Of a DNA stretch of 64,000 nucleotides, positions 49 to 13,083 are shown one piece after another. This DNA comes from Mortierella sp. BCC40632 (Eukaryota; Mortierellomycota; Mortierellomycetes; Mortierellales; Mortierellaceae): NCBI GenBank assembly GCA_011634665.1, contig WAEK01000015.1, positions 165,001-229,000 of the forward strand, given 5' to 3'. Below the pieces are notes generated by a model, which saw only the letters and a list, made by a program, of their open reading frames with translations, searched no databases and had not been told where the DNA came from. The position numbers and the translations under genes were made by a program. Every line of letters begins with the position of its first letter. The stretch's first letter is position 1.

Positions 49-1599
49 CACCAGCATATTCCTTGCCTTGGTCATGTTATCAATCTCGCTGTGCAAGCCT
101 TCTTGGGCAAAAATGGACTGCGGGCCACAGCATTGAAGGAATCTGTGGAGCACAATGACGCCGATTACAAAGACGATCTAGAGGTCCTACCAGCGCCCGA
201 TGACGAGGAAGAAACCGCGGACAAGGATGAGGATGCCCACTCTAATAATGCAGTCTGCGCTTCCTCCAGTGCAGTTCCAGTTGCAAGCGTGGACTCCAAA
301 GACGATATCGCTGACGACAACGATGGCCGTTCCCCTGTCACATTACTGCATACTGGTATCAGTCTGGACGACGTCGAGATCCTGGCTGAACATTTTGATA
401 CTGAGGATACTGCTTCGATGCTCAGTCCCTTATGGACATTGAGAAATGGGGTGATCAAGTTGAGGTAAGAAAGGACGGTCGAATTTGGTGTAATCAGCTT
501 TTTTTTTTTTTTTTTTTTCGGGTGGTTTGAATAATTACGTATATGTGTAGCCCATATAAGCAACACTCGTTTCTAATGAGCCTTGTACTTGCCTACTTGT
601 AGATCATCGCAAGCCCGTCTTGATCTTTTTCACAAGGCAGCCCAGGAGAACAGCGCTTCCAAAGGGCATGGCGATCTTGTGCTGATTCTTGACGTCAGAA
701 CTCGTTGGAATTCAACACACCGGATGATCAAACGTGCACTGTTGCTCCGAAACGCATACAACGAGATCTGCGAGAATAATGCTGATATGGAGGGCAGTAC
801 GATAAGCGAGTCAGGGTGGGAGTACCTTCAGCAATTAGCTGCTCTATTGGAGAGATTCGACACGCTTACAACTCAGATATCAGCAAGTCTCTCCTGCTCA
901 ACAATCCCTTTTACAATCTTTGTCTACAATGACCTTATTGATCGACTCGAAGATTTCATCGACGAACACGAGAACCCAGGCACACTACCTGACATGGTCG
1001 TTGCAGCAAAGACAGCTAAAGAAAAACTTTTAAAGTATTACATAAAAACCGACATGACACCAATCTATTCTGTTGCAACCGCGATGCATCCCAATATGCG
1101 CTTTTCTTACTGGAAGGACCAAGATTGGGAGGATGGCTTCCAGGAAGCTGCCCAGAAAATGGTTAGGATAGAGTGGTCGGCCAACTATGAGGACGCATCA
1201 ACGTCAAGTGCCATTACCGCACAGCCTAGATCTCAGGACAGCATCTCTTGCAACAATAGAGGAGGCTCGCGAAGCATTATGCGCCGTAAGTCAAAAGCGA
1301 TAAACTCAACTATCGGTGAACTGGACAAATACGTAGCTGCAATGGATCCAGACACTCAGTACGATGACGATCCAACAGTCTTTTGGAAAATATATCAGCC
1401 GGTATGGCCATCAGTTGGTGCCATGGCTCGTGACTATCTGGCCATCCCTGCAACATCTACACCGTCGGAGCGGTGCTTCTCCAAAGCTAAACTTGTGTTA
1501 CCACACAACAGGAATCGCTTAAGCAGGAAAAAAATCAAAGAGCTTATTCTTACCGAGTCTTGGTTTTCATATTTAGACAGGAGCTGTACAAAAAAATAA
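49..1599 (+). CDS. hAT-superfamily transposase, 3' part (5' end outside window)
   Basis: Two exons are visible: about 49-464 and 603-1599. The intron is 465-602 (donor GTAAGA, acceptor TTGTAG), and the codon split across it reads as a single Arg in the same frame on both sides. The upstream exon starts at an acceptor near 47-54 because the same frame has a stop at 25-27. It opens with H-I-P-C-L-G-H-V-I-N-L-A-V-Q, the conserved hAT block with a Cys/His pair before the alpha-helical insertion. An acidic Asp/Glu-rich stretch follows, then DVRTRWNST, the next hAT landmark. The C-terminus (about 1420-1590) holds the hATC dimerisation domain with AIPATSTPSERCFS and NRLS. hAT proteins cut and paste DNA in the nucleus using a DDE/RNase H-like core. 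The visible frame is uninterrupted, so this copy could be active or domesticated. AATAAA-type signals lie just after the stop (about 1595-1613). Terminal repeats were not identified. Confidence 0.9.
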
Positions 1600-2008: not shown

Positions 2009-2057
2009 TTGTATCCCTTAAACCGTAAGGTTTGGTAGGCAAATTTGCCGATTTAAA
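2009..2057 (+). repeat. Left terminal inverted repeat of the Fanzor-bearing element
   Basis: Bases 2009-2029 are the exact reverse complement of 9139-9159 (21 of 21). Going inward, a further 8-base block (TAGGCAAA, 2036-2043) matches the complement of 9130-9137. A TGCC/ATTTAA block at about 2046-2056 matches the complement of 9119-9128. The spacers between blocks differ in length, as in diverged arms. The arm includes the palindrome GGCAAATTTGCC (2039-2050). No clear target-site duplication is visible outside. A TA dinucleotide sits at the same place in both arms (2012-2013 and 9155-9156), so a TA target is possible but unproven. Confidence 0.75.
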
Positions 2058-2191
2058 AAAATAATAATGAGTGGTTAGATTCCATTGAGCGAGCACAAAA
2101 TACAGGGTATGTTTGTTTCAAACAAGAAATACTTACTGAAACAGGATAAATAATGTCGAGTTCCACACTCGACTTTGGCTTCCCATTGTTC

Positions 2192-4961
2192 CTATTGACT
2201 TCGGCGCAAGAACCATGGCCACTCCATCTTCGACAGCCAGTGGTGAACCGCCATTGCCATGTTTTGCCCACCATTCACGTCGCGGTTGCGTGCTGACTCA
2301 TGCTTGGCTTCTGTGTTGGCTCCCGCTGCACTGGCTCTACTGGACTTGACGTTATGACACTCTGCCTTGCAAATTATCGATCTCTTGTTCTCCTCCGTGC
2401 TGTCGCCACAGAGACAACATCGCTGCGATGTGTTGTACTCGTCAACCAGACACACAAAAAATACCCATCCCTAGTGCCTATTAGGCAGCAGTATCATATT
2501 AAAATCATAGTCTTGACAAAAGATCCTTTGTCCTACGCCTTTACTTACCATCTGGCACAGTCTCTCCAGCACGAGATACGTTCCACTCGTTCCACCATTA
2601 AATGGCTTAAACACTCCGTCTCCAATGGCAAGAATGACCTGTCGCTTGGATGGCAGACTGGGCTTTGGCAGGGGTTCTTGCATCTCCTCTGCTGTCTCCA
2701 GATTGGCGATGCTAACAGCCGTCTGCAGAATATGTGAAAGGCGCTGGTCTATCTCTGATCGATGTCTTTTGCTGCTTTTGGTACTTGAGGATCTTGTAGG
2801 ACATGGATCCGTAGAATGCTCCAAGCAACCCATCAGCACCAAGTTTCGACCGGACATGCTCCTCACTGTTCTTGGAGAGTTGTCGCAGTCGTGACTCTTC
2901 TGGAACCTTGCCAGGGTCCTCAACGGTTACTGGAACAATCGCTTGCTCTGCTGTATTGATATCATCCGTCTCCTTGGCAAGCTGCATCAGGTGCCTGATC
3001 CACTTTTTGTGTGCCTGTTGTACGTTCCCCTGGACAAGTGGTGATTTGAAGCCCGGTCGGGTCGGGCGCTATCAACTATCACCGCTGTGATGAGCTCGGC
3101 AATCCCAGGGTCAACCCCAATCACCACACAGCTTTTCCCGACAAGCCTGTCAACTGTCTCCTTATTTTTGAAGAGCTCGGTGACATACGGGATAGAATTC
3201 CGACCACCGTTGAGGGGGTGTGCAAGAGATTTGCTGGCTTTTGGACATGGGGTAGTACTGCCTGTCGCCTCTGCATCGCCTTTAGGACTCTGAACCTTTT
3301 TGGTCTTGGGATCCAGTGCGCGATAGGCAAGTAACCGGAGCTGATATCCGTCTGTTACGATTGTTCCACGCAAACAATGTTTGTGGTGTGGGTGTAGCTG
3401 CGGGTGTTCGGTATTGGCTGATTTTACATCTAGATTGCCCATCTGATGACATTTCGCTGCCTTCAGTGCAGTGATCCATTCTTTGCCTTTCCGACAAACC
3501 GACTCTTCAGCTCTCCATAGCTCCTCTTGGCCGCAGTCCCCTCAGGTTGTTCAGTATTGCTCTTCCCTCGCCCAGGCAATTGTTTGGCTGCCTCTTCAAA
3601 CTCCTCTTCCGCTGTAGCAACCGCCAAGCCAAAAGAGTCAAACAGTCCCGGAAGCTGGGATGTCGATGGTCTCCCAACACAGGTTGTTCTGTCATAGTTG
3701 GTCTTTTGTCTTCCTCCGACAAAGAGCCTGTAGCAGATCTCGCCTGGATGATCTGAAGCCCTCTTTGCCGCCTCAGCCTGAGTGGAGACTCCCAGCAGTT
3801 CTTTGATTATCCTTTGTTTTGCTTCGTTGACACGGTCCTGTCGAAAGATTGCGCGGACAAGATACTGCTCGGGGACTGTAAGGAAGGCTGTCGTGTCTCG
3901 AACAGCAGGGGCCAATTTCATCCGCTCCAGAGCTGGTAGTTGGAGGTTGAGAATCGTGAAGACCTCGGCCTGGCTGTACGCTTTCGACACTCCACTTTCC
4001 TCCACTGCTGCCAACAACGCTGCACCCTCTGTCGATTGGGCCCATGTCGGGTTTCTTTGGCGTACCTATAAAAAGTTATCATGGTTAGGATATGTTGAAA
4101 TGCTGGACAATTCAAACTCTCAACATGGAAAGGTTCATGCTACTTACTCTGCTGATCAACTCTGGGACAAACTCGACAAATGTCTTGCGCAATAATTTGT
4201 GAAGACTCTGCCCCGACCCTTCAAAGAAGCAGTGGGGTACTTGGCCCTGAAGGTGCGACTGAAATTGTTGTCGCTGCTGATCAAAATCAGTCCCGGCTCT
4301 CTCGGCAAAGTCGCTGACCACTTCCTTGGCGAGGTTCATGCCTGGTGTCCCTCGCTTTGTCTTGTCACCGCAGTAGAGGTAAATTATATGTTGTCGACAA
4401 AAATCCTCTGTGTCTACCGTCTGTAACCTTTTTCGATCCTCTACTTGATTGTCCCCTGCAGAATACATGTTTGCGACTGTCCTGGCAATGAACCATTGGA
4501 TGACATAGAGTGCAAGTTTAGTGGCCTCTGAGTTGCACTTTGCTATCGCTAGCAGTGTGTCACCAATGTACTGTGCGGCTGCTCTGCGTTCTGTTTCTGA
4601 TATAGAAGGAAGCCGTTCTTTGAGAACTGATTCTACTCGCCACTGGATTGGATCGCGCTTCTGGGTGATACAGTCAGATGTTGAGTTTAATACTTGGTCA
4701 ATCAGGTTACCGGGCGATACTCTATTAGATGCTCCTGCTTCCGACTTGCTTTCTGCTCCCAGGGCCGTTTGAACAGCAAGTCTTGTAGCCTTTGCCCTCT
4801 TCAGCTTTCCGCGTCGTCGTTTTGTTAAAGGCTCCAGTGGGGTCCTTGCCTCACTTGCTTCGATCGTTGTCAGAGAATTCGCATCTTGTTCGTTTCTGTC
4901 ATTCTCATCGGTTGGCGCTTCTCGCTTTACAGCCCTAGTGAGAAAAAGATGGGTTAATCCT

Positions 4962-4999
<38 letters not shown>

Positions 5000-5442
5000 C
5001 CTTAACCCAAGCTGCAACCTATATTTAAAACTTGCCTTTTGAGGAGCCGCTTATCGTGAACTGGCTGCTTGCTCACAGAACACTCCCGTTGTGGATTTTT
5101 AGATGTACTGGTCTCGACTCCCGAACGAGCTGTGCGCCAATTGTCAGTCTCGCCTTGACCAACAGCTGGCTCAGAGATCTCTTCTTCCTCTTCTTCCTTT
5201 CTCGGAAAGTTGTCAATCATTCCCATACCACGAGGCTGGGTGATTTTGAGAGTCGGGACATTTCGTTCCTTGGTCATATGTCTTGTAGCACCGCTCTCGG
5301 CCTGGATTCGCATGGCGTTTTCATTCCGCTGTTCATCAGCACGCCGAAACGAGAACGAAGGTCTTGACAACGCTTGCGCTGCCACTATGCCTATACAAAA
5401 AAAAAAAAAGTTGATCATTAAAATAATGTCCCCTGTCATCAA
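2192..5442 (-). pseudogene. Fanzor nuclease (eukaryotic TnpB/OMEGA homologue), frame-broken
   Basis: Fanzors are RuvC-fold nucleases guided by an RNA made from the same element. Signature pieces appear in order on the minus strand: an N-terminal basic/acidic region (about 5400-4900); an HPHH...CLRGTIVTDG block (about 3400-3340) typical just before the nuclease core; RuvC-I IGVDPGI with the Asp codon at 3110-3112; SRGTYNRHTK after it; LAIGDG with FKPFNGG in the middle of the core; then VDEYNTS, a CCLCG zinc knuckle (about 2440-2400) and the RuvC-III motif NRDVNGGQNM (about 2290-2255). The Glu of VDEYNTS could be the relocated catalytic Glu described for Fanzors. Two introns fit well: 4147-4066 and 2548-2471, both phase 0. 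Frame breaks occur near 3488, 3004-3008 and 2767-2770, each in a short A/T run. The second zinc knuckle is unclear. The 5' limit is uncertain because the intron around the poly-T at 4966-4999 does not close in phase. Confidence 0.85.
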
Positions 5443-5505
5443 CTGGCTGCAGGCTTTGGAGAAGATTCAGTCCTACCCCTGCGCCACTGCTTTCTCTTTT
5501 TAATC

Positions 5506-6588
5506 CTAGTGTTGAGCTTTGCGAAGCTCCTCGGGGAATTTCTTGGCTGCACTCAACAACTGGTCCGATAGGCAAAGTATCTCTGAGGGGGCGTCGAGGG
5601 AGGCACTAGTGGTGTCTCCTCTGCGTGGATGAAAATTTTGGTCGCATCGTCAAACTGGCTTGGATCCACTTCAAGAGCTTTGGCATACCCTGCTAACAGC
5701 GCTTGCGCCGTCCTTTGACCTGCAGGCAATCGATCCCATAGTCCAACAAAAATTTTCTGGTTCTTGTTGATGCCATACCCCTTGACATTTTCGCAATAGT
5801 CGTTCCCCGAGGTGATCGCCACTGCTTGCCATACCACAAAGTCCGGAACCCTCAGTTGTCCCAGGGGCCTCGTCGTTGATCGTGTACAGCCAGAATGTGG
5901 ACTTGATAGCGCGGTCTTGACTGATCAAATGAATGTTGGGGGTAAAGAGCATATCGCTATCGACTGTCGCTACATAGATCCGTTGTCAGGACCCCAATGC
6001 TTCGCGCCTAATGCAGTTATCGGTCTCGCCAGAGCAAACATGAGCGCGGTGGCCAAGAGCCACGAGGTCATTGGCAACCTTGACCCGCATGCCCATATCG
6101 ATCCGTATTGAACACTTCCAGGAAGCCATCATGTTCACAAATGCCCGGAGTAGGCGTCGGCGCAAGTTGCGTGCTGAGCGATCCCCACCATCAGGATACT
6201 CCTGGTTTGGTTGAATTGCTGCGTTGAATGCGGACAGAGAGCTGGAACATTGCTCACGACTATCCACTTCATTTTGCGATCGATGTTTCCTGGCGACGAC
6301 CTTTTCAGCGATAGGGGAGTCCGTCGATGTGGATAATCGCGTCATTGGAAAAGCTGAGTTTGAGTTTCTTGCTTATTGCTTTGGCGATCCAGTCGGGCTC
6401 TTCGTCTGGCTCCTTGCCCCTGGAAGCCAGGCGCAGCAATTTCTTCTGGAACCAAAAAGAATGGCAAGGAGATAGGATAAATAGAGTGCAAAGAGGTCGA
6501 CGTGGACAGAAGGAAGCTCTTTCGGATCTACTGCAGACCGTAGGATACCAGCTTTTGCAATAGTCTTCCAAGCTTGTTTGACTGTCAT
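5506..6588 (-). pseudogene. FEN1/XPG-superfamily (PIN-like) nuclease, frame-broken
   Basis: The ATG at 6588 opens MTVKQAWKTIAKAG. The segment carries the usual order of acidic motifs in FEN1/XPG nucleases: HVDLF near the N-terminus; IHIDGLP followed by EK and Arg (compare FDG-P--K-R); HVCSGETDNCI (compare the E-x-E block); VATVDSDMLF (compare T-D-x-D); and TSGNDYCENVKGYGI (compare GcDY-x-GIG). These proteins cut flap or bubble DNA structures with two metal ions. Breaks are visible: frame changes near 6454-6458, 6314-6317 and about 5840, and an in-frame TGA at 5986-5988 just before the D-x-D motif. The 3' end (stop at 5506-5508) is the most plausible of three frames and is less certain. The gene shares strand and element with the Fanzor downstream. 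A function in repair or transposition of the element is inference. It could also be read as the N-terminal part of one long fusion with Fanzor, but no intact join was found. Confidence 0.7.
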
Positions 6589-6918
6589 GTTTTTAATGGC
6601 TTTGTAGGCTAGTTGGGTGAATGTGAGAGGGGAGAAGTGCAAACAAAGAAAAAGGAGATTTTTGTTATTTTCAACAGCCCAAATGCTCGTGGATGTGGGA
6701 AAAAGGACTATTTTGGGGGAGGGGGAAAGGACTATTTTGAAAAAAGGACTCTTTCTGAAAAAAAAGGACTCTTTTTGAAAAAAAGGAAAAAAAAAAAAGA
6801 CAGGCGCTGCTAATACTTACACTGGCAACAACCTTTTCAAAGTACCAAATGAGGCGTAAAACCGTTGCCAATTTGGTCCGCTCAGGCCTTCTCCTGAGGA
6901 GAGGCCCGTGCTTGATGT

Positions 6919-7157
6919 TCCATACTCACATACATACTGCCCCAAAACCTACTGCCCCAAAAACCTACTGCCCCAAAACCTACTGCCCCAAATCCTACTC
7001 TCTCTCATATGTCCTACTCTCTCTCAAATCCTACTCTCTCAAATCCTACTCTCTCATATCCTACTCTCATATCCTACTCTCTCTCAAATCCTACTCTCTC
7101 AAATCCTACTCTCTCATATCCTACTCTCATATCCTACTCTCTCATATCCCTCTCTCT

Positions 7158-7191
<34 letters not shown>
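6919..7191 (+). repeat. Nested tandem repeats and poly-T tract inside the element
   Basis: A run of ACTGCCCCAAA-type units with a period of about 14-15 bp begins near 6938. Then come CCTACTCTCTCAAAT/CATAT units of 11-16 bp. Bases 7021-7080 and 7081-7140 are identical, a perfect 60-bp tandem duplication made of smaller units. The array ends in a 32-nt poly-T run (7160-7191). It lies between the unknown ORF and the FEN1-like gene. A likely origin is recent replication slippage. No CRISPR-like spacer structure is present. Confidence 0.85.
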
Positions 7192-7192
<1 letters not shown>

Positions 7193-7339
7193 GACAAATA
7201 ACACGCAACACTCGAGGAGTGAGAATACATTCGTCCGGGTTTATCGACAAAAAGGAAAAAGAAAAGAGGAAATACACATGCTCTGTTTGCTATTTTTCAT
7301 TGGGCCAAGTCGTTATCTTCAGAAAATGAGACAATGCGC

Positions 7340-8337
7340 CTACGCCTGAATGCATTGCCTCATGAGGGTCACGACAGCCTCGATTTGCTTGTTGCGGTGA
7401 GGGGGGATAAGAAGAAAGACTGCAGCCAAGAAAGCCAAAAGGGGAAGGTGACCTCGTGTCTTTACAGCAGCCTTTGATAAATTGTATTTCACTACCAGGA
7501 GCAGGTACTTTTTGCTGGATCGCCTCGCGGTCTGTGCATTGGTCATCGGCGTGTCTCTTTTCCACTCAGTCTTGAACCTTGACCTCAGGTTGATCAGATG
7601 CTGGACAACTGCTTGTTGCTTGCCTTTGTTGCCACAGTGGCAATTGCAAATTGCTATGAACCGGTATTGGTCTCCAACGCTTCACCACACCAATGCGTTT
7701 GCAAAAGCCACTATCGCCTGTTCTCTCGTTTGAGAATCGTGGATGTCGATGTCGCAAAAGATTTTCGTTTCCTTCTTTAAGGATGATGTTTAGGGGATTC
7801 TCGCCTTTGATAGCATCTTGAGAGCGGAGCCAATTCAGGGCGGTAGAATATTTGAGGCGTCGCTGTAAAATGGCGGTTGATGGCTGATATGCAACAGACC
7901 TCTGGTTCTCTTCCGGGATAGGATCATCCAGGTCAATGGACAGAGTAGGAGGAGACTCTAGTATGATTGTTTTGGGATAGCTTGGAGGTGACTGAATCTG
8001 TGTTGGCTGGTGTTCTCGACGACGATTGTTGTTCTCCACTTCCATATTATCTTTTGCTAGCCTGGCTTTTGAGCCGTCCTATCGCACTGGCCACGGATGA
8101 TGAGCAGGACCAAGACTTGGCTGCTTGACTGTCTAAGGCATAGACGGAAGGGTTGCGGGAATTGGTGGGGAATGGCATCATTCTCGCTCTGGCTCCGGTG
8201 TTCATGCCATGGTCAATATCTTCGACAGGGGTGCCGTAAACAATGAGATCCTGTGGTTGTTCCTGAGTCAAGGAGTCTTCAGTCACATTGATCTTGTTGT
8301 CAGTGTCAAGAATGCTGCTGTCAAAGACCATTTTCAT
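7340..8337 (-). pseudogene. Unrecognised ORF of the Fanzor-bearing element
   Basis: I do not recognise this product. The minus-strand frame opens at 8337 (MKMVFDSS) and gives about 95 residues to a stop at 8047. A second frame (8045 leftward) gives a Pro/Ser/acidic-rich stretch and then QRRLKYSTALNWLRSQ. After about 7760 the most protein-like reading lies in another frame (CDIDIHDSQTREQA, then CNCHCGNKGKQQ), and it ends with NKQIEAVVTLMRQCIQA at 7340. Moving between frames suggests single-base breaks like those in the two downstream genes. The Cys/His-rich CNCHCG piece could be part of a zinc-binding segment. If the element encodes its own mobility protein this is the remaining candidate, but no catalytic motif supports that. 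Confidence 0.45.
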
Positions 8338-9111
8338 CAGTATCGGCTGGAAAGGGTAGCCATTATCTCTTTCTGCGGGGGGTGGGAGGGTTTTATTTTT
8401 TTTTTCTGGCCGGACCGCACGGACCTTTTATTGATAGACACAGTGGATGGTGCCAAGGCCATGGATCAGATCCCCAGCAGAAGTGAAACATGTATATGGG
8501 CTCCTTAAGTTGGTTCTGAGAACTGGATTAGAGGTGTTTGAGAGGGGACCCGACTACTGGGGGGAGAGGAACCCCTCTCGGGTCTGCGATGCCTTTTTGG
8601 GATGTGCAGGAAAAAAATGAAAAAAGCTTATTCCATATGGAGTAAGGATGCGATTATGATTTTGTGAATCTCTGGTCTTCAACACTTAGAAGGAACAGAG
8701 AGTGTACAAGAGCCTCTCTGGCAATGATTTCAAACACAGGAACCAAAAAAGGCGCGTTTGAAAGCAGCACTCCTATTGAAGGTACAAACAATCTTGATCG
8801 CAATGAACAGACTGCCCACATGGCAGCAAGATAGAGACCGAGCTTTCCCCCAAGTAGTGTAAAACATACTCCAAGCCATGTCGCGCTTAACTGAAACTAA
8901 ACCTGTCATCATCGAGGGCTACCTGGACTTGAGATAAGAGGAGCACGTTTAACCATACGGGGGATCAATCCAGCAGCTCAAGTTGAAGTGGATCGGGCTT
9001 GTGTCCATTCCTTGCTTCGGTGCGTAGTTTGAATTGCTAGTTTCTGACCTTAGAGATTGGGGGGATGTCTCATAAAAAACTTTTGAGAAAACTGCTGAAA
9101 ACCATCAAAAT
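8338..9111. other. Non-coding right end of the element
   Basis: No supported coding region lies between the 5' end of the unknown ORF and the right inverted repeat. The minus strand should hold its promoter. The sequence is of mixed composition, with no long microsatellite and only short frames. Confidence 0.4.
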
Positions 9112-9159
9112 GTTAAAGTTAAATGGCATTTTGCCTAGCTTACGGTTTAAGGGATACAA
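9112..9159 (-). repeat. Right terminal inverted repeat of the Fanzor-bearing element
   Basis: This is the inverted partner of 2009-2057: 9139-9159 is a perfect complement of 2009-2029, and two further blocks match inward with small indels. An A-run (about 9175-9201) begins 16 bases outside this arm. Confidence 0.75.
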
Positions 9160-9173
9160 GAACACGTGCAAAC

Positions 9174-9434: not shown

Positions 9435-11969
9435 TTACTTTGAAGTGCAGACAAATCGGATTAGGCTCTTCAGTGTCACCATGTCATCCTTGTTTGCTTC
9501 AATCCCCCCGTAGAAAAAGCTGTCCATGTTGTCCAGACGAATGTACACCATCACATCTTCTCCCAAGACATGCGTAACTGGAACTATGCTTTGGACTCCA
9601 GGGAGCACAAGATGAATGCGGAGTGTGCCCTTGATGCTGGAAGGGATGCCGGAACCCTCGTAGTCGGTGCGAACTTTTATCAAGTTCTTGTTGGTGTCGC
9701 CGACCACGCTCAAGAAACAGGCCCGAACATCGCTGGAGGATGTGTTGGACTTGTGAAAACCTTGAGCCATGGGACTACTGAAGAACTTGATCGCAAGTGA
9801 CCCTGCGTACTGCCTGTTTGGGAAGAACCAAAGCCCATCAGGTCGCGTACCATTACTAGGACTCAGTAATGTGTTTGAAGGACCGTTGATGAGAAAGTCA
9901 AGGTCTGCAGCAGCTCCATCGCCTCGGCACCCGAATCCTTTTTGCTGTGTTGATATCGTCAATTTGAAGCCGAAGACCATGACACCATGAAGGCAACTCG
10001 GATTTATCAAGGTCCTTTAGAAAAGGAAGATCACTGATAAGGTACCCATTAAAACGTTGAAGTGACCGATGGACAATTGGCTCAAGTGCATTGCCTTTTG
10101 TTGCTGAGGTTCTGCCAAGGCTGTTAATGAGTTGGGTCAACTGATCCATGTACCCTGAGAACATGGGATCCATGGACGACGCCTTTAGCTCTTTCTCCAC
10201 AGCCTCGATCACTATTGGCTCGTCCATGATCAGGTGAGCGCCATCAGAATGCGCTCGCAATCTGCACAAGGCCTTGTCCACAAAGTCTGCTTGCTTGCTA
10301 CTTGAGAACAAGATTTTGCCATCTTGGAAATGATAGGCCAGGACCATCCGACAGAAAAGCCGAGCAGCTTCACCTGTAGAATCGCTTTTTGAAGAATAGC
10401 GTGAACTCCACTCCCTAAGACCACGCGTCACATGCTCAATTGTGAGGTCGACGGCGTTGTCTAGCGTGACCTGCTTGGTTTTCTGGGTAGGGCCAGTTGT
10501 GATGAGGTGGTTGACGATGCCAACGGAAAATCGCGCCCGTCCTGAAAGCTTGCGACGCTTGGCAATCGGAATTTCGCAGCCGGCGAGGTCGACCACCTCC
10601 GAGAGCATCTTGTTGACCTCCCTCCTGATCAAAAACTGGAAAGTCTGTTATCCTGATAAAGTTGGTGGGCTTGCCTACAGCAGTGTAAACGTGGTCAGCA
10701 TCCTGTAGCGAGAGCGCTGTGCCAAGGATCACCAGTGTGGCTTTGTATGCGGCTCAGTGTGGCCGACAAAGGCGTAAGGAAGCCGCGGCGAAGATGACGA
10801 TGAATCTCATTCTTGTCATCAAAGAGGACGCTTGGCAAGTTCCGAGTATTCCAGTATGAAGCCAAAGCGGATGGTGAGATAAACCGGCCGGCGAGGATAC
10901 TAGTCGCCGCAGCTTGAGCTTCATCCAGAGCAATCGCCAGTCCAAGGCGCCTAGCGTCAAGATGTTCATGGAGCTTTGTTTGGACAACACCAAGCATGAT
11001 GCCGATTGTTTGGACATCATACTCACGCAGCTTGTGAATCAGATTGTTAATAGTCAAGGCTCCTCCATTGGTTGTTTGCTCGCGAAAAAATTGCCACGGC
11101 TCAAGCTCTGGGCTGTGACTGAGGAGAAGGTGAAGGAAAAGTAGACGAGCCAGAAATTCGAGTTCAACACGGTGGCGTGCAAGTCTGTTCGCCTCAGCCT
11201 CGGTATCAAGCAGATTTCCTGCCCCGCCTTGTGTCCGGACAATACTCGCATACATCTCCTCGACGTCAATAGCAAGCTGGGCGAAGTTTGAGTCCTCGAA
11301 CTCTGGAGAGATGGTGGGCCTGGTAGAACGACATACGCAGTAGACAACAAAGTGTTTGGTGGCCAGATCAAGGACGGTAGCCGTCTTTCCTGAGCCAGAC
11401 GGTGCCACCATGGCGACCACACGGTGGCCACTGGATTTACCGATGTCATCCTCGACAATGGAACACAAAGTCGCCTTTGCCGTCACTCGTTTTTGCCTGC
11501 TTACCTAATTCAAGTCCCAGCATCGCCAGTTTGATATCTTTTGCTGTGGTGTGATATGGTAGAGTCCTCTTTGAAAAGGGCCCAAGTCGTTCCTTCTGGA
11601 AATTCTCGACTTCCTCTGGGTTAACAGTTTGATGGGCAAAATGATGCTGAGTGCCGCTGAGGATGATCGCCAGTTCTTGTTCAATGCGATCCTGTGGAAC
11701 AGAGACACGCTGAATTGGAGTAGCTAAACCACGAAAGAAAATTATTAAAATGGATGAGATTAAAAAAAAAAAAAAAAGAACTCAATGTGAACTCATAAGA
11801 CATATTGTTCGGACTCACTTGGGCGAGAAGATGGAAGCCAGGAACTGGAGTCAATGAGCGAGAAGGGACAGGTGATGGACTATGAGGATAATGGAAAGGA
11901 AGAAAACAAAGTTTATGGGATGAATAAGCTCATGTAGATAGAGATCAATCAACAAACGCGTATTCCGTG

Positions 11970-12013
<44 letters not shown>

Positions 12014-12366
12014 GCGTGTGCATACATCTTGGGGAGGGGAGGGCGCTGGACAACGATATGAATTGTCTTCTTGGGAGGAGCTTCTGGAAAGACATCAGTA
12101 ATGTCATCGGTGGGATCGAGCTCTGTGGAGGCATCAATCGCGCTCAAGAGAATCGGATTGTGCTTGTTGGCAGCGATGACAGGGTGAGTGACGCGCCAGA
12201 GGGTGAGGTCCTTGGCATCAACTCCGTTGAATGTGTCAGGAATCTTGGCCTTGATGGCGTCTTTGAGAGCATCAACAGTCTTTGCGGATTCGATCTCGAC
12301 TGAAAACGCCTTGGAGGTCGTCTCTCCATCAACAAGGCAGAACAAAGTGAGGTGTTTGTCGGTCAT
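9435..12366 (-). pseudogene. Crinkler (CRN) family protein, four +1 frame breaks
   Basis: Crinklers are modular proteins with an N-terminal ubiquitin-like header and a C-terminal NTPase/nuclease-like body. They were first known as oomycete effectors and are also abundant in some fungi. Exon 1 (12366-12026) encodes MTDKHLTLFCLVDGE and LTLWRV, the CRN header. The intron 12025-11880 contains a 43-nt A run. Exon 2 is 11879-11819. Exon 3 starts at 11709 with RVSVPQDRIEQEL and runs to the stop at 9435-9437. Phase closes across both introns. The body has a P-loop APSGSGKT (about 11400), ALDEAQ as a Walker B-like motif (about 10920), and the conserved tail with GTRPDG and SLAIKF. The reading frame moves by one base near 11490-11494, 10725-10740, 10620-10622 and 9939-9943, each time as if one base were extra. 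This leaves a broken gene unless they are assembly errors. About 890 residues would be expected from the exon lengths. Confidence 0.88.
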
Positions 12367-12798
12367 AGTGCTGCGAAGCAGAGAAAGAAGGGATGTTGGA
12401 TAAAAAAAGGTGTGGGCTACAGGGAAAGAGAGATAAAGGAAAAGAGAACAGGAAGAAGGGATGAAAGGTGTGAGAACGGTGGCAAAGACGATGCACATGT
12501 GGAGATGGTGGCAAAAAGAAAGGATGTTAGACACAAACAAAAAAGTAAGGTCAAAGGAGAGCGTGAGAGCAGTAAAGGCAATGGAATAGAGAAAGGGATA
12601 TGAGTGAGGAGGGTGACATTGCAAAGAGACGCGCCGAAAGAAAGTGCATGATAGTGACAGGTGACAGATGGCGCGATATTCTCGACGTAACAGAGTGGCT
12701 TGCGCCATGCAAGCCCTCCCATCACTTATCTTCACCCCACCGTCTTCATTGCCTCCACACTCATCGTCGTCTTTCCCTCTTGTCATCCTTTCGATGTC

Positions 12799-12802
<4 letters not shown>

Positions 12803-12848
<46 letters not shown>

Positions 12849-12895
12849 TCTCTCTTCCTCTCTCTTCCTCTCTCTTCCTCTCTCTCCTCCTCTCT
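12803..12895 (+). repeat. (CT)n microsatellite followed by a 10-bp TCTCTTCCTC array
   Basis: A pure CT run of about 42 nt (12803-12844) passes into four copies of a 10-bp unit (TCTCTTCCTC, 12841-12880) and then degenerate CT-rich sequence. It sits upstream of the crinkler start, on the opposite strand. Confidence 0.9.
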
Positions 12896-13083
12896 TTCCT
12901 CACCAATCGCATCATCTCCACATCTATTCTTATTCATTACTCGGCACACGTTTCCCTGTCTCCTTTCCTTCATTTGCGCGTTTCACGCCTCCGTTTAAGG
13001 TAATGTACTCGTGCTGTTCATGTCAGAACGTTGCAGTTGGAAAGCGCAGACTGTTGTCACTCTCGTATTATAGCTGGTACTCT

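Follow-up and report, generated by a model that had tools for sequence, protein, structure and literature searches.

Within a 64,000-nucleotide stretch of contig WAEK01000015.1 from the fungus Mortierella sp. BCC40632 (the window, here meaning that whole stretch), we describe a 7-kb transposon that pairs a flap-nuclease-like domain with a Fanzor. The reading we favor, at somewhat better than even confidence, is a multicopy transposon with no recognized transposase of its own, which likely carries a single spliced gene encoding a FEN1/XPG-type nuclease together with a Fanzor1, and which a piggyBac-type transposase would mobilize in trans. The element is repeated through the genome with defined termini, it holds two conserved nuclease parts in a fixed order, and its termini are common to piggyBac-encoding elements. 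We put at about even the chance that the gene represents a new class of RNA-guided nuclease in eukaryotes, a single polypeptide whose own structure-specific flap nuclease would let it both make and process a guided break.

The window lies in contig C15 of a 49.9-Mb genome in 62 contigs. An earlier note on this DNA, made from the window's letters, had described a perfect 21-bp inverted match, and positions 2009-2029 are indeed the exact reverse complement of 9139-9159. The element itself spans 2012-9156, or 7145 bp including the TA at both ends, and is bounded by TATCCCTTAAACCGTAAG with TA outermost; the outermost 3 matching bases (2009-2011 and 9157-9159) are flank and differ in other copies. 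In genome searches, the left end (2012-2200, from a query of 2000-2200) was found at 100% identity in five other loci and the right end (8900-9162) at 99-100% in four, each with weaker relatives besides. The 19-base terminus has 48 genome matches at up to 3 mismatches (14 exact; part of the 48 were read individually) against 5 for a reversed-pattern control. A chance inverted repeat is thus ruled out, as the ends recur genome-wide and the terminus stands well above its control.

Comparison with 20 fetched stretches aligned the element end to end, 2012-9156, in four other copies (C27, C1, C3 and C7). A partial copy on C11 aligns over the element's first 5397 bp. Over aligned bases, the four complete copies show 99.0-99.4% identity to the window copy, and the 7-kb copies compared with each other 99.0-99.7%. 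A related family of about 5 kb (seven copies: C17, C5, two on C10, C9, C8 and C19) has a DNA identity of about 68-72% to the window element over long matches and keeps the Fanzor region, the nuclease region and the ends, but not the third-gene region. For three copies on C25, the identity over long matches is about 85-89%. The group ending in TATCCC therefore comprises 16 copies: the window copy, four complete and one partial 7-kb copies, seven of the ~5-kb family and three on C25. TA stands at both ends in 9/9 copies with both ends readable; the right end of L035 is decayed, and the C8, C19, C11 and C25 copies lack one end in the stretch fetched. Flanks differ among most copies. C1 and C7 share both flanks, C3 and C11 the left and C15 and C27 the right, so part of the 7-kb copy number reflects segmental duplication. 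The three C25 elements (L036-L038), separated on their contig by about 40 and 69 kb, have the same first right-flank bases, which suggests a duplicated block. Separately, we observed two inverted pairs of the TATCCC terminus, about 88 bp each with almost nothing between (L049:305-392 and L050:6143-6230), resembling a minimal miniature inverted-repeat transposable element, and two loci (L047 and L048) where the left end alone is seen.

Both the nuclease and the Fanzor were matched in 16/16 TATCCC-ended copies, with the nuclease upstream on the same strand. The same arrangement occurs in all four copies of a second lineage (C4, C24, C20 and C9) that has different ends, beginning in TACAGT, and a protein about 30% identical. 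In two of its copies, L052 and L053, the flanks differ and the 4.69 kb between them are common to both (98.6% identity), with ends TACAGT...ACTGTA and palindromes just inside. The exact TACAGT terminus pattern has 11 genome matches, including both ends of all four copies; we used exact matches alone, since with up to 2 mismatches the pattern is unspecific (among the matches listed, at least 130 against 73 in the control). Since the same pair is found within both TATCCC and TACAGT ends, the gene pair rides two kinds of element. The earlier note's view that a Fanzor and a FEN1/XPG-like nuclease sit together between matching inverted repeats, with no recognized transposase, holds in both groups. 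If the gene does represent a new nuclease class, its presence in two vehicles with unrelated ends and such divergent proteins would make the pairing an old one and imply that the two activities work together.

Genome-wide, grouping matches at E <= 0.001 by hand gave at least 34 nuclease-like and at least 31 Fanzor loci, counts that are lower bounds. Twenty-two pairs lie on one strand in nuclease-Fanzor order within a few kb: the 16 TATCCC and 4 TACAGT copies, C5:254402-255796 and a remnant at C6:644458. Whether the two genes also occur independently, the test that the note had set, has a mixed answer: 22 pairs keep a fixed order, while 12 nuclease-like and 9 Fanzor loci are unpaired. Eight of the former are 24-34% identical, and the other four are fragments at 47-62% identity (C9:939864, C5:994869, C17:260290 and C2:2903865); the unpaired Fanzor loci are fragments at 31-87% identity, two of which (C22:515415 and C6:1133457) lie beside TACAGT ends. 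The copies are not independent, and the real weight of the co-occurrence is that of three lineages, with C20, C9:1225301 and C5:254402 known as matches alone. The third pair, at C5:254402-255796 (G000), is 44-49% identical to the TACAGT lineage.

The nuclease domain carries seven acidic residues (D31, D87, E186, D188, D208, D210 and D261) that do not vary among five sequences drawn from two lineages and as little as 30% identical. In the alignment they form the order D, D, E-x-D, D-x-D, D, then KGxG, with D261 in an NDYxxNxKGxG context. We take the seven to correspond to FEN1 positions, and judged by sequence their order and spacing agree with the FEN1 family. When a five-sequence profile was compared with PDB chains, three Exonuclease 1 (EXO1) chains ranked first (E 0.11-0.12), in register with the last three motifs, a result not significant alone. 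An hhalign comparison with a host protein on C2 that has a significant XPG_I domain covered the DSD and SDY...KGIG motifs (E 1.7e-4, probability 49%). Two results count against this assignment. The curated Pfam XPG score is not reached: one of five members, L052, matches XPG_I_2 below the cut-off (E 5.9e-4 and 4.8e-4; 19.9 bits vs 24.2), and the other four match no XPG family. Single-sequence PDB searches with the nuclease also returned only unrelated weak matches, and other such searches gave none. None of 7997 scored candidates in a protein database matched the nuclease at E <= 0.001, a result of little weight as the database's cover of relatives is unclear, and 28 pattern matches to the nuclease profile in viral contigs included no relative. 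Because the curated family score is not reached, we class the domain no more closely than FEN1/XPG-like, with a predicted XPG fold. The note's flap nuclease with a full acidic series is supported by the motifs, while profile searches stay below formal significance or cut-off. Full-length nuclease matches without stops occur at C10:838176, C5:901624, C17:1101474 and C27:132667.

The Fanzor assignment is firmer. The C-terminal 295 residues of a related copy, L031, match PF07282 (Cas12f1-like_TNB; E 4.2e-8, 33.7 bits against a cut-off of 26.3); the match of the window copy is weak and below cut-off (E 0.0023). L031 shows GVDPG, then 202 residues to TS, TS-R-Q-C-C-x-C and RD..NGA (D-X202-TS-X2-C), with the fourth zinc ligand not evident. 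In the parts of the cited papers on which we draw here and below, DPG is given as the Fanzor RuvC-I signature (PMC10711439) and the Fanzor1 motif as D-X(125-275)-[TS][TS]-X2-C4 zinc finger-X(5-50)-RD (PMC3627910, PMC10711439). By its residues, L031 carries this Fanzor1 motif, and its spacing from RuvC-I to zinc finger fits that of PMC3627910. The domain match and motifs bear out the Fanzor that the note had recognized. A PDB search with the Fanzor placed a chain named Transposase (E 0.18) and TnpB (E 0.42) on top, neither significant, and an NCBIfam scan gave sub-cut-off TnpB matches for one of the eight proteins given. From the Fanzor stop to the left terminus is 180 bp, which fits the expected position of a guide-RNA scaffold. 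Folding of this region (134-139 nt) was no better than that of shuffles (z -1.1 to +0.4), a point against our reading. The terminal 49-59 nt form hairpins that are better than shuffles to a varying degree (z -1.5, -2.2 and -3.2); these palindromes may serve the transposase, because they are present at both ends.

Between families, both nuclease parts are under purifying selection. In pairs of one 7-kb or C25 copy (L027, L029 and L038) with L031, where dS is near saturation (1.1-2.0) and the values are rough, dN/dS was 0.14-0.20 for the nuclease and 0.12-0.14 for RuvC; the Fanzor middle gave 0.16-0.34, the Fanzor N-terminal part 0.24-0.29 and the linker 0.26-0.33. Nine further pairs are noisier because single copies carry frameshifts: dN/dS of the nuclease is 0.22-0.62, and that of the Fanzor N-terminal part reaches 0.97 against L031's sisters, because of L031's out-of-frame stretch. 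These values bear on two other accounts. In one, the flap-nuclease-like domain is catalytically idle and acts for the Fanzor as a DNA- or RNA-binding module, as damage to the nuclease domain in several copies might indicate. Invariance of all seven acidic positions at 30% identity and the low dN/dS over the domain between families make this unlikely. In the other, the whole gene is a dead relic, a hitch-hiking passenger without current function. None of the copies read closely is free of lesions or oddities, the piggyBac loci carry stops, and several 7-kb copies share flanks, so that copy number is partly segmental duplication; purifying selection, 99% identity among the 7-kb copies and differing flanks nevertheless point to activity in the recent past, and we regard a relic as possible but somewhat unlikely.

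The gene runs along the window's minus strand, the nuclease frame first and the Fanzor after, in five predicted exons (Table 1). Exons 2 and 3 of the window copy are open in the joining frame, exons 1, 4 and 5 carry frameshifts or stops, and one G more precedes the intron 1 donor than in L029. In the 7-kb, C25 and ~5-kb families, the sequence separating the two frames starts with GT and ends with AG in 14/14 copies read (of the 15 copies attempted, L026 escaped the landmark, and L035 was not among them). When spliced, C17 (L031) and C5 (L032) read through the junction in frame, as do L029 and L036 when joined by hand, and the five predicted exons of L031 give 1302 amino acids (aa) without a stop. 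In the TACAGT lineage, where C4 (L052) was read by hand, two predicted phase-0 introns join the frames, and the first Met of the next (Fanzor) exon is at residue 86. The predicted product is about 1,300 aa long, with an XPG/FEN1-like N-terminus and a Fanzor1 C-terminus. Against a protein database the 1302-aa reading met none of 7990 scored candidates at E <= 0.001, again of little weight given the unclear cover of relatives. As an observation on its own, the predicted GC-AG intron at 4935-5035 (minus strand; AG|GCAAG) is kept between the 7-kb and ~5-kb families.

Several points weigh against our reading. No copy read closely is pristine: L031 is out of frame near residue 700 relative to L032 and L033, part of the RuvC region is missing from L032, stops interrupt L042 (one of them in exon 2), L033 has one extra junction base at which the reading breaks, and L052 has a frameshift further on, as seen against L053. 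The search for intact copies called for in the note thus yielded four further complete-length copies, but in every copy read closely a lesion or oddity. Linker residues 377-419 show little excess of third-position change, and in the TATCCC group a Met at fused residue 420, conserved across the 7-kb and ~5-kb families, could be the start of a Fanzor made on its own. These last two points, together with nuclease frames that hit a stop within or just past the predicted splice donor, would fit two adjacent genes whose separate proteins, made from their own promoters or by re-initiation, are kept together by riding one element. We consider this rather unlikely. GT and AG are retained in all copies read, the Fanzor exon of the TACAGT lineage has its first Met only at residue 86, and although the poly-T of the intron varies in length, the exon 2 frame is open in L031, L032 and the window (L042 has its stop there). 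A single fusion protein, its parts joined by predicted splicing, is probably what the gene makes, well ahead of two proteins.

With respect to mobilization, no transposase family was recognized among the ten element frames scanned and no PF13843 match lies in the element (mariner models were not run on the genome), which agrees with the note's claim that none is visible inside. PF13843, the piggyBac-type transposase, has six matches genome-wide, at C18, C8, C6, C7 and C1. The C18 element (2.06 kb) has like termini, with 1 and 3 mismatches of 19, as does the C8 element (2.15 kb), with 4 and 2 of 19; the best pair, the C8 left end and the right end of the ~5-kb family, matches at 34/37 bases. 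A terminus also lies about 0.8 kb from the C1 piggyBac fragment. The C6 piggyBac element ends in TGTCCCTT/TATCCCTT with subterminal palindromes and matches the other termini at no more than 12/19 bases. At the level of sequence, the element thus has the shared termini that mark a non-autonomous piggyBac element, and because piggyBac-encoding elements share its termini, a piggyBac-type transposase acting in trans is the likely mobilizer. Two loci were considered as autonomous partners and set aside, C7:1447105 and C5:1433480, whose open reading frame lists held no transposase by eye (no family scan). Likewise, we rejected the C6 piggyBac as the transposase of the TACAGT family, as it has its own TRTCCCTT ends. 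It lies in a 14.4-kb TACAGT-ended span (L054-L057, C6:1119921-1134322) along with a Fanzor fragment.

Three observations count against this assignment of the mobilizer. Canonical piggyBac elements duplicate TTAA, and here the ends have TA; we therefore describe the element as mobilized like piggyBac and do not file it as canonical piggyBac. Stops interrupt the matched domain of the piggyBac genes at C18, C6, C7 and C1; at C8 the domain is open, with a stop in its frame a short way upstream. Finally, the empty site that the note had hoped for was not found: neither one joined flank pair searched genome-wide nor 12 pairs searched against the fetched loci gave a match spanning the junction. A Tc1/mariner-type transposase, which targets TA, could instead move the element, with piggyBac elements having captured these ends. 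TA rather than TTAA is present at both ends in the nine copies with both ends intact, and the distant nuclease-Fanzor family has TACAGT ends, which we presume to be mariner-like. Fanzor1 is moreover known in Tc/mariner, and ESv-1, a Fanzor family of unknown class, is reported to have 2-bp TA duplications (PMC3627910, in the part consulted). However, three piggyBac-encoding elements, including the diverged C6 one, end in (T/C)RTCCCTT with palindromes nearby, and the best terminal pair matches at 34/37 bases. We hold a mariner-type mobilizer to be unlikely and retain piggyBac in trans.

If these parts act together, the two-nuclease scheme raised by the earlier note is plausible, likely through one fusion protein rather than two neighbors. 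A piggyBac transposase would cut the element out at TA. A guide RNA would end at the left terminus, its scaffold formed by the Fanzor 3' region, the terminus and TA, and its guide by the flank. So guided, the Fanzor domain would cut the empty donor site, where the tethered flap nuclease may trim 5' ends or a displaced strand and so discourage simple rejoining. Repair of the break would then draw on the copy that the sister chromatid or homologue carries and restore the element, for a net gain. The part played by the flap nuclease in repair is one that we purely infer, and the scheme is the weaker for it. What a eukaryotic transposon gains by retaining a Fanzor, and by what means the resulting break is channelled into element-restoring repair, are open questions; a natural fusion of guided and end-processing nucleases would single out repair as the step under selection. 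Such a compact, ready-made two-nuclease protein in a eukaryotic transposon would also be a candidate genome-editing enzyme.

Table 1. Features of the element in window coordinates; exons, introns and the guide-RNA site are predicted.
Feature	Positions	Strand	Description
Whole element	2012..9156		End-to-end copies at C27, C1, C3, C7
Left terminus	2012..2049	+	TA + TCCCTTAAACCGTAAGG..., then palindrome GGCAAATTTGCC; identical in five other 7-kb-family loci; partly common to piggyBac elements C18, C8
Fanzor 3' region and terminus	2012..2191	-	Expected guide-RNA scaffold site, guide from flank below 2012, by analogy with PMC10711439 (part of the text)
Exon 5 (predicted)	2192..2477	-	Zinc finger and RuvC-III (NRDVNGGQN); frameshifted near start in window copy; preceded by intron 2478-2548
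Exon 4 (predicted)	2549..4065	-	Fanzor middle and RuvC-I (VDPG); frameshifted in window copy; preceded by intron 4066-4147
Exon 3 (predicted)	4148..4934	-	Open frame over the Fanzor N-terminal region; follows GC-AG intron 4935-5035
Exon 2 (predicted)	5036..5390	-	Linker, open in joining frame
Intron 1 (predicted)	5391..5476	-	GTAGGA...TATAG; links nuclease and Fanzor frames; phase 1 per L029
Exon 1 (predicted)	5477..6588	-	FEN1/XPG-like domain, ATG at 6588; frameshifts and stops in window copy
Third gene	7350..8337	-	Broken; member of independent multicopy family
Right terminus	9119..9156	-	TATCCCTTAAACCGTAAGCTAGGCAAAATGCC as read on minus strand

The third gene has no Pfam or NCBIfam match. 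Its family has 86 genome matches, 64 of them away from these elements by hand count, with open frames of ~344 aa at C25:165588 and C6:2145216. A three-gene unit is ruled out, as the third gene is independent and absent from the ~5-kb family. Of the three co-oriented gene remnants in the earlier note, what holds is that all are on the minus strand and broken; the Fanzor and nuclease are probably one spliced gene, and the third belongs to a separate family. Its relatives also sit reversed inside the C25 elements. Between the third gene and the nuclease, a 15-bp tandem array (CCTACTCTCTCAAAT-like) occupies 6914-7143 (plus strand). Outside the element, to its left, a frame at 583-1599 (plus strand) has a hAT transposase C-terminal dimerisation domain (PF05699, E 1.6e-14), and a frame with a Crinkler N-terminal domain (PF20147, E 4.5e-28) lies within 11851-12921 (minus strand).

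Compared with known systems, the nuclease domain resembles the FEN1/EXO1/XPG (Rad2) family of 5' nucleases in the order and spacing of its acidic motifs, in its KGxG turn and in EXO1 topping the profile matches; it differs in being very diverged and below family cut-offs, attached to a Fanzor and encoded by a transposon. As for the piggyBac superfamily, PF13843 elements of the same genome share the termini, the body of the terminal inverted repeat (TIR) starting with CCC after TAT. The differences are TA instead of TTAA at the junction, the lack of a recognized transposase and a passenger region of ~5-7 kb. Our literature search met no text naming both Fanzor and XPG, though texts naming both Fanzor and flap endonuclease exist, and no Fanzor with Mortierella or Mucoromycota; subscription papers and most preprints were outside its scope. 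A piggyBac-borne Fanzor was not met in the literature parts examined, and further texts mention both Fanzor and piggyBac. The text of PMC3627910 contains neither 'XPG' nor 'flap', and its single 'piggyBac' concerns a DEDDh nuclease in piggyBac, not a Fanzor; 'piggyBac' does not appear in that of PMC10711439. Parasitella PpFz1 (PMC11423790) is likewise a fungal Fanzor1 with an added domain (FRI); that domain is discussed beside a cyclophilin complex, with 0 occurrences of 'XPG' or 'nuclease domain' in the text available. The closest systems are the Fanzor1 non-autonomous DNA transposons, reported in Helitron, mariner, IS4-like, Sola, MuDR, hAT and Crypton contexts (PMC3627910; PMC10711439, both in part), carriers that piggyBac-type elements would join if our reading is true. 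Like the element here, these are TIR-bounded and have a Fanzor1 with DPG and a TNB zinc finger and no transposase; the Fanzor 3' end adjoins one terminus, and the flank is short and resembles a target site duplication, the TA-flanked ESv-1 being among them. What sets the Mortierella element apart from the transposons of those two papers, as far as their parts seen extend, is the FEN1/XPG-like nuclease that precedes the Fanzor and is likely fused to it, between piggyBac-like ends.

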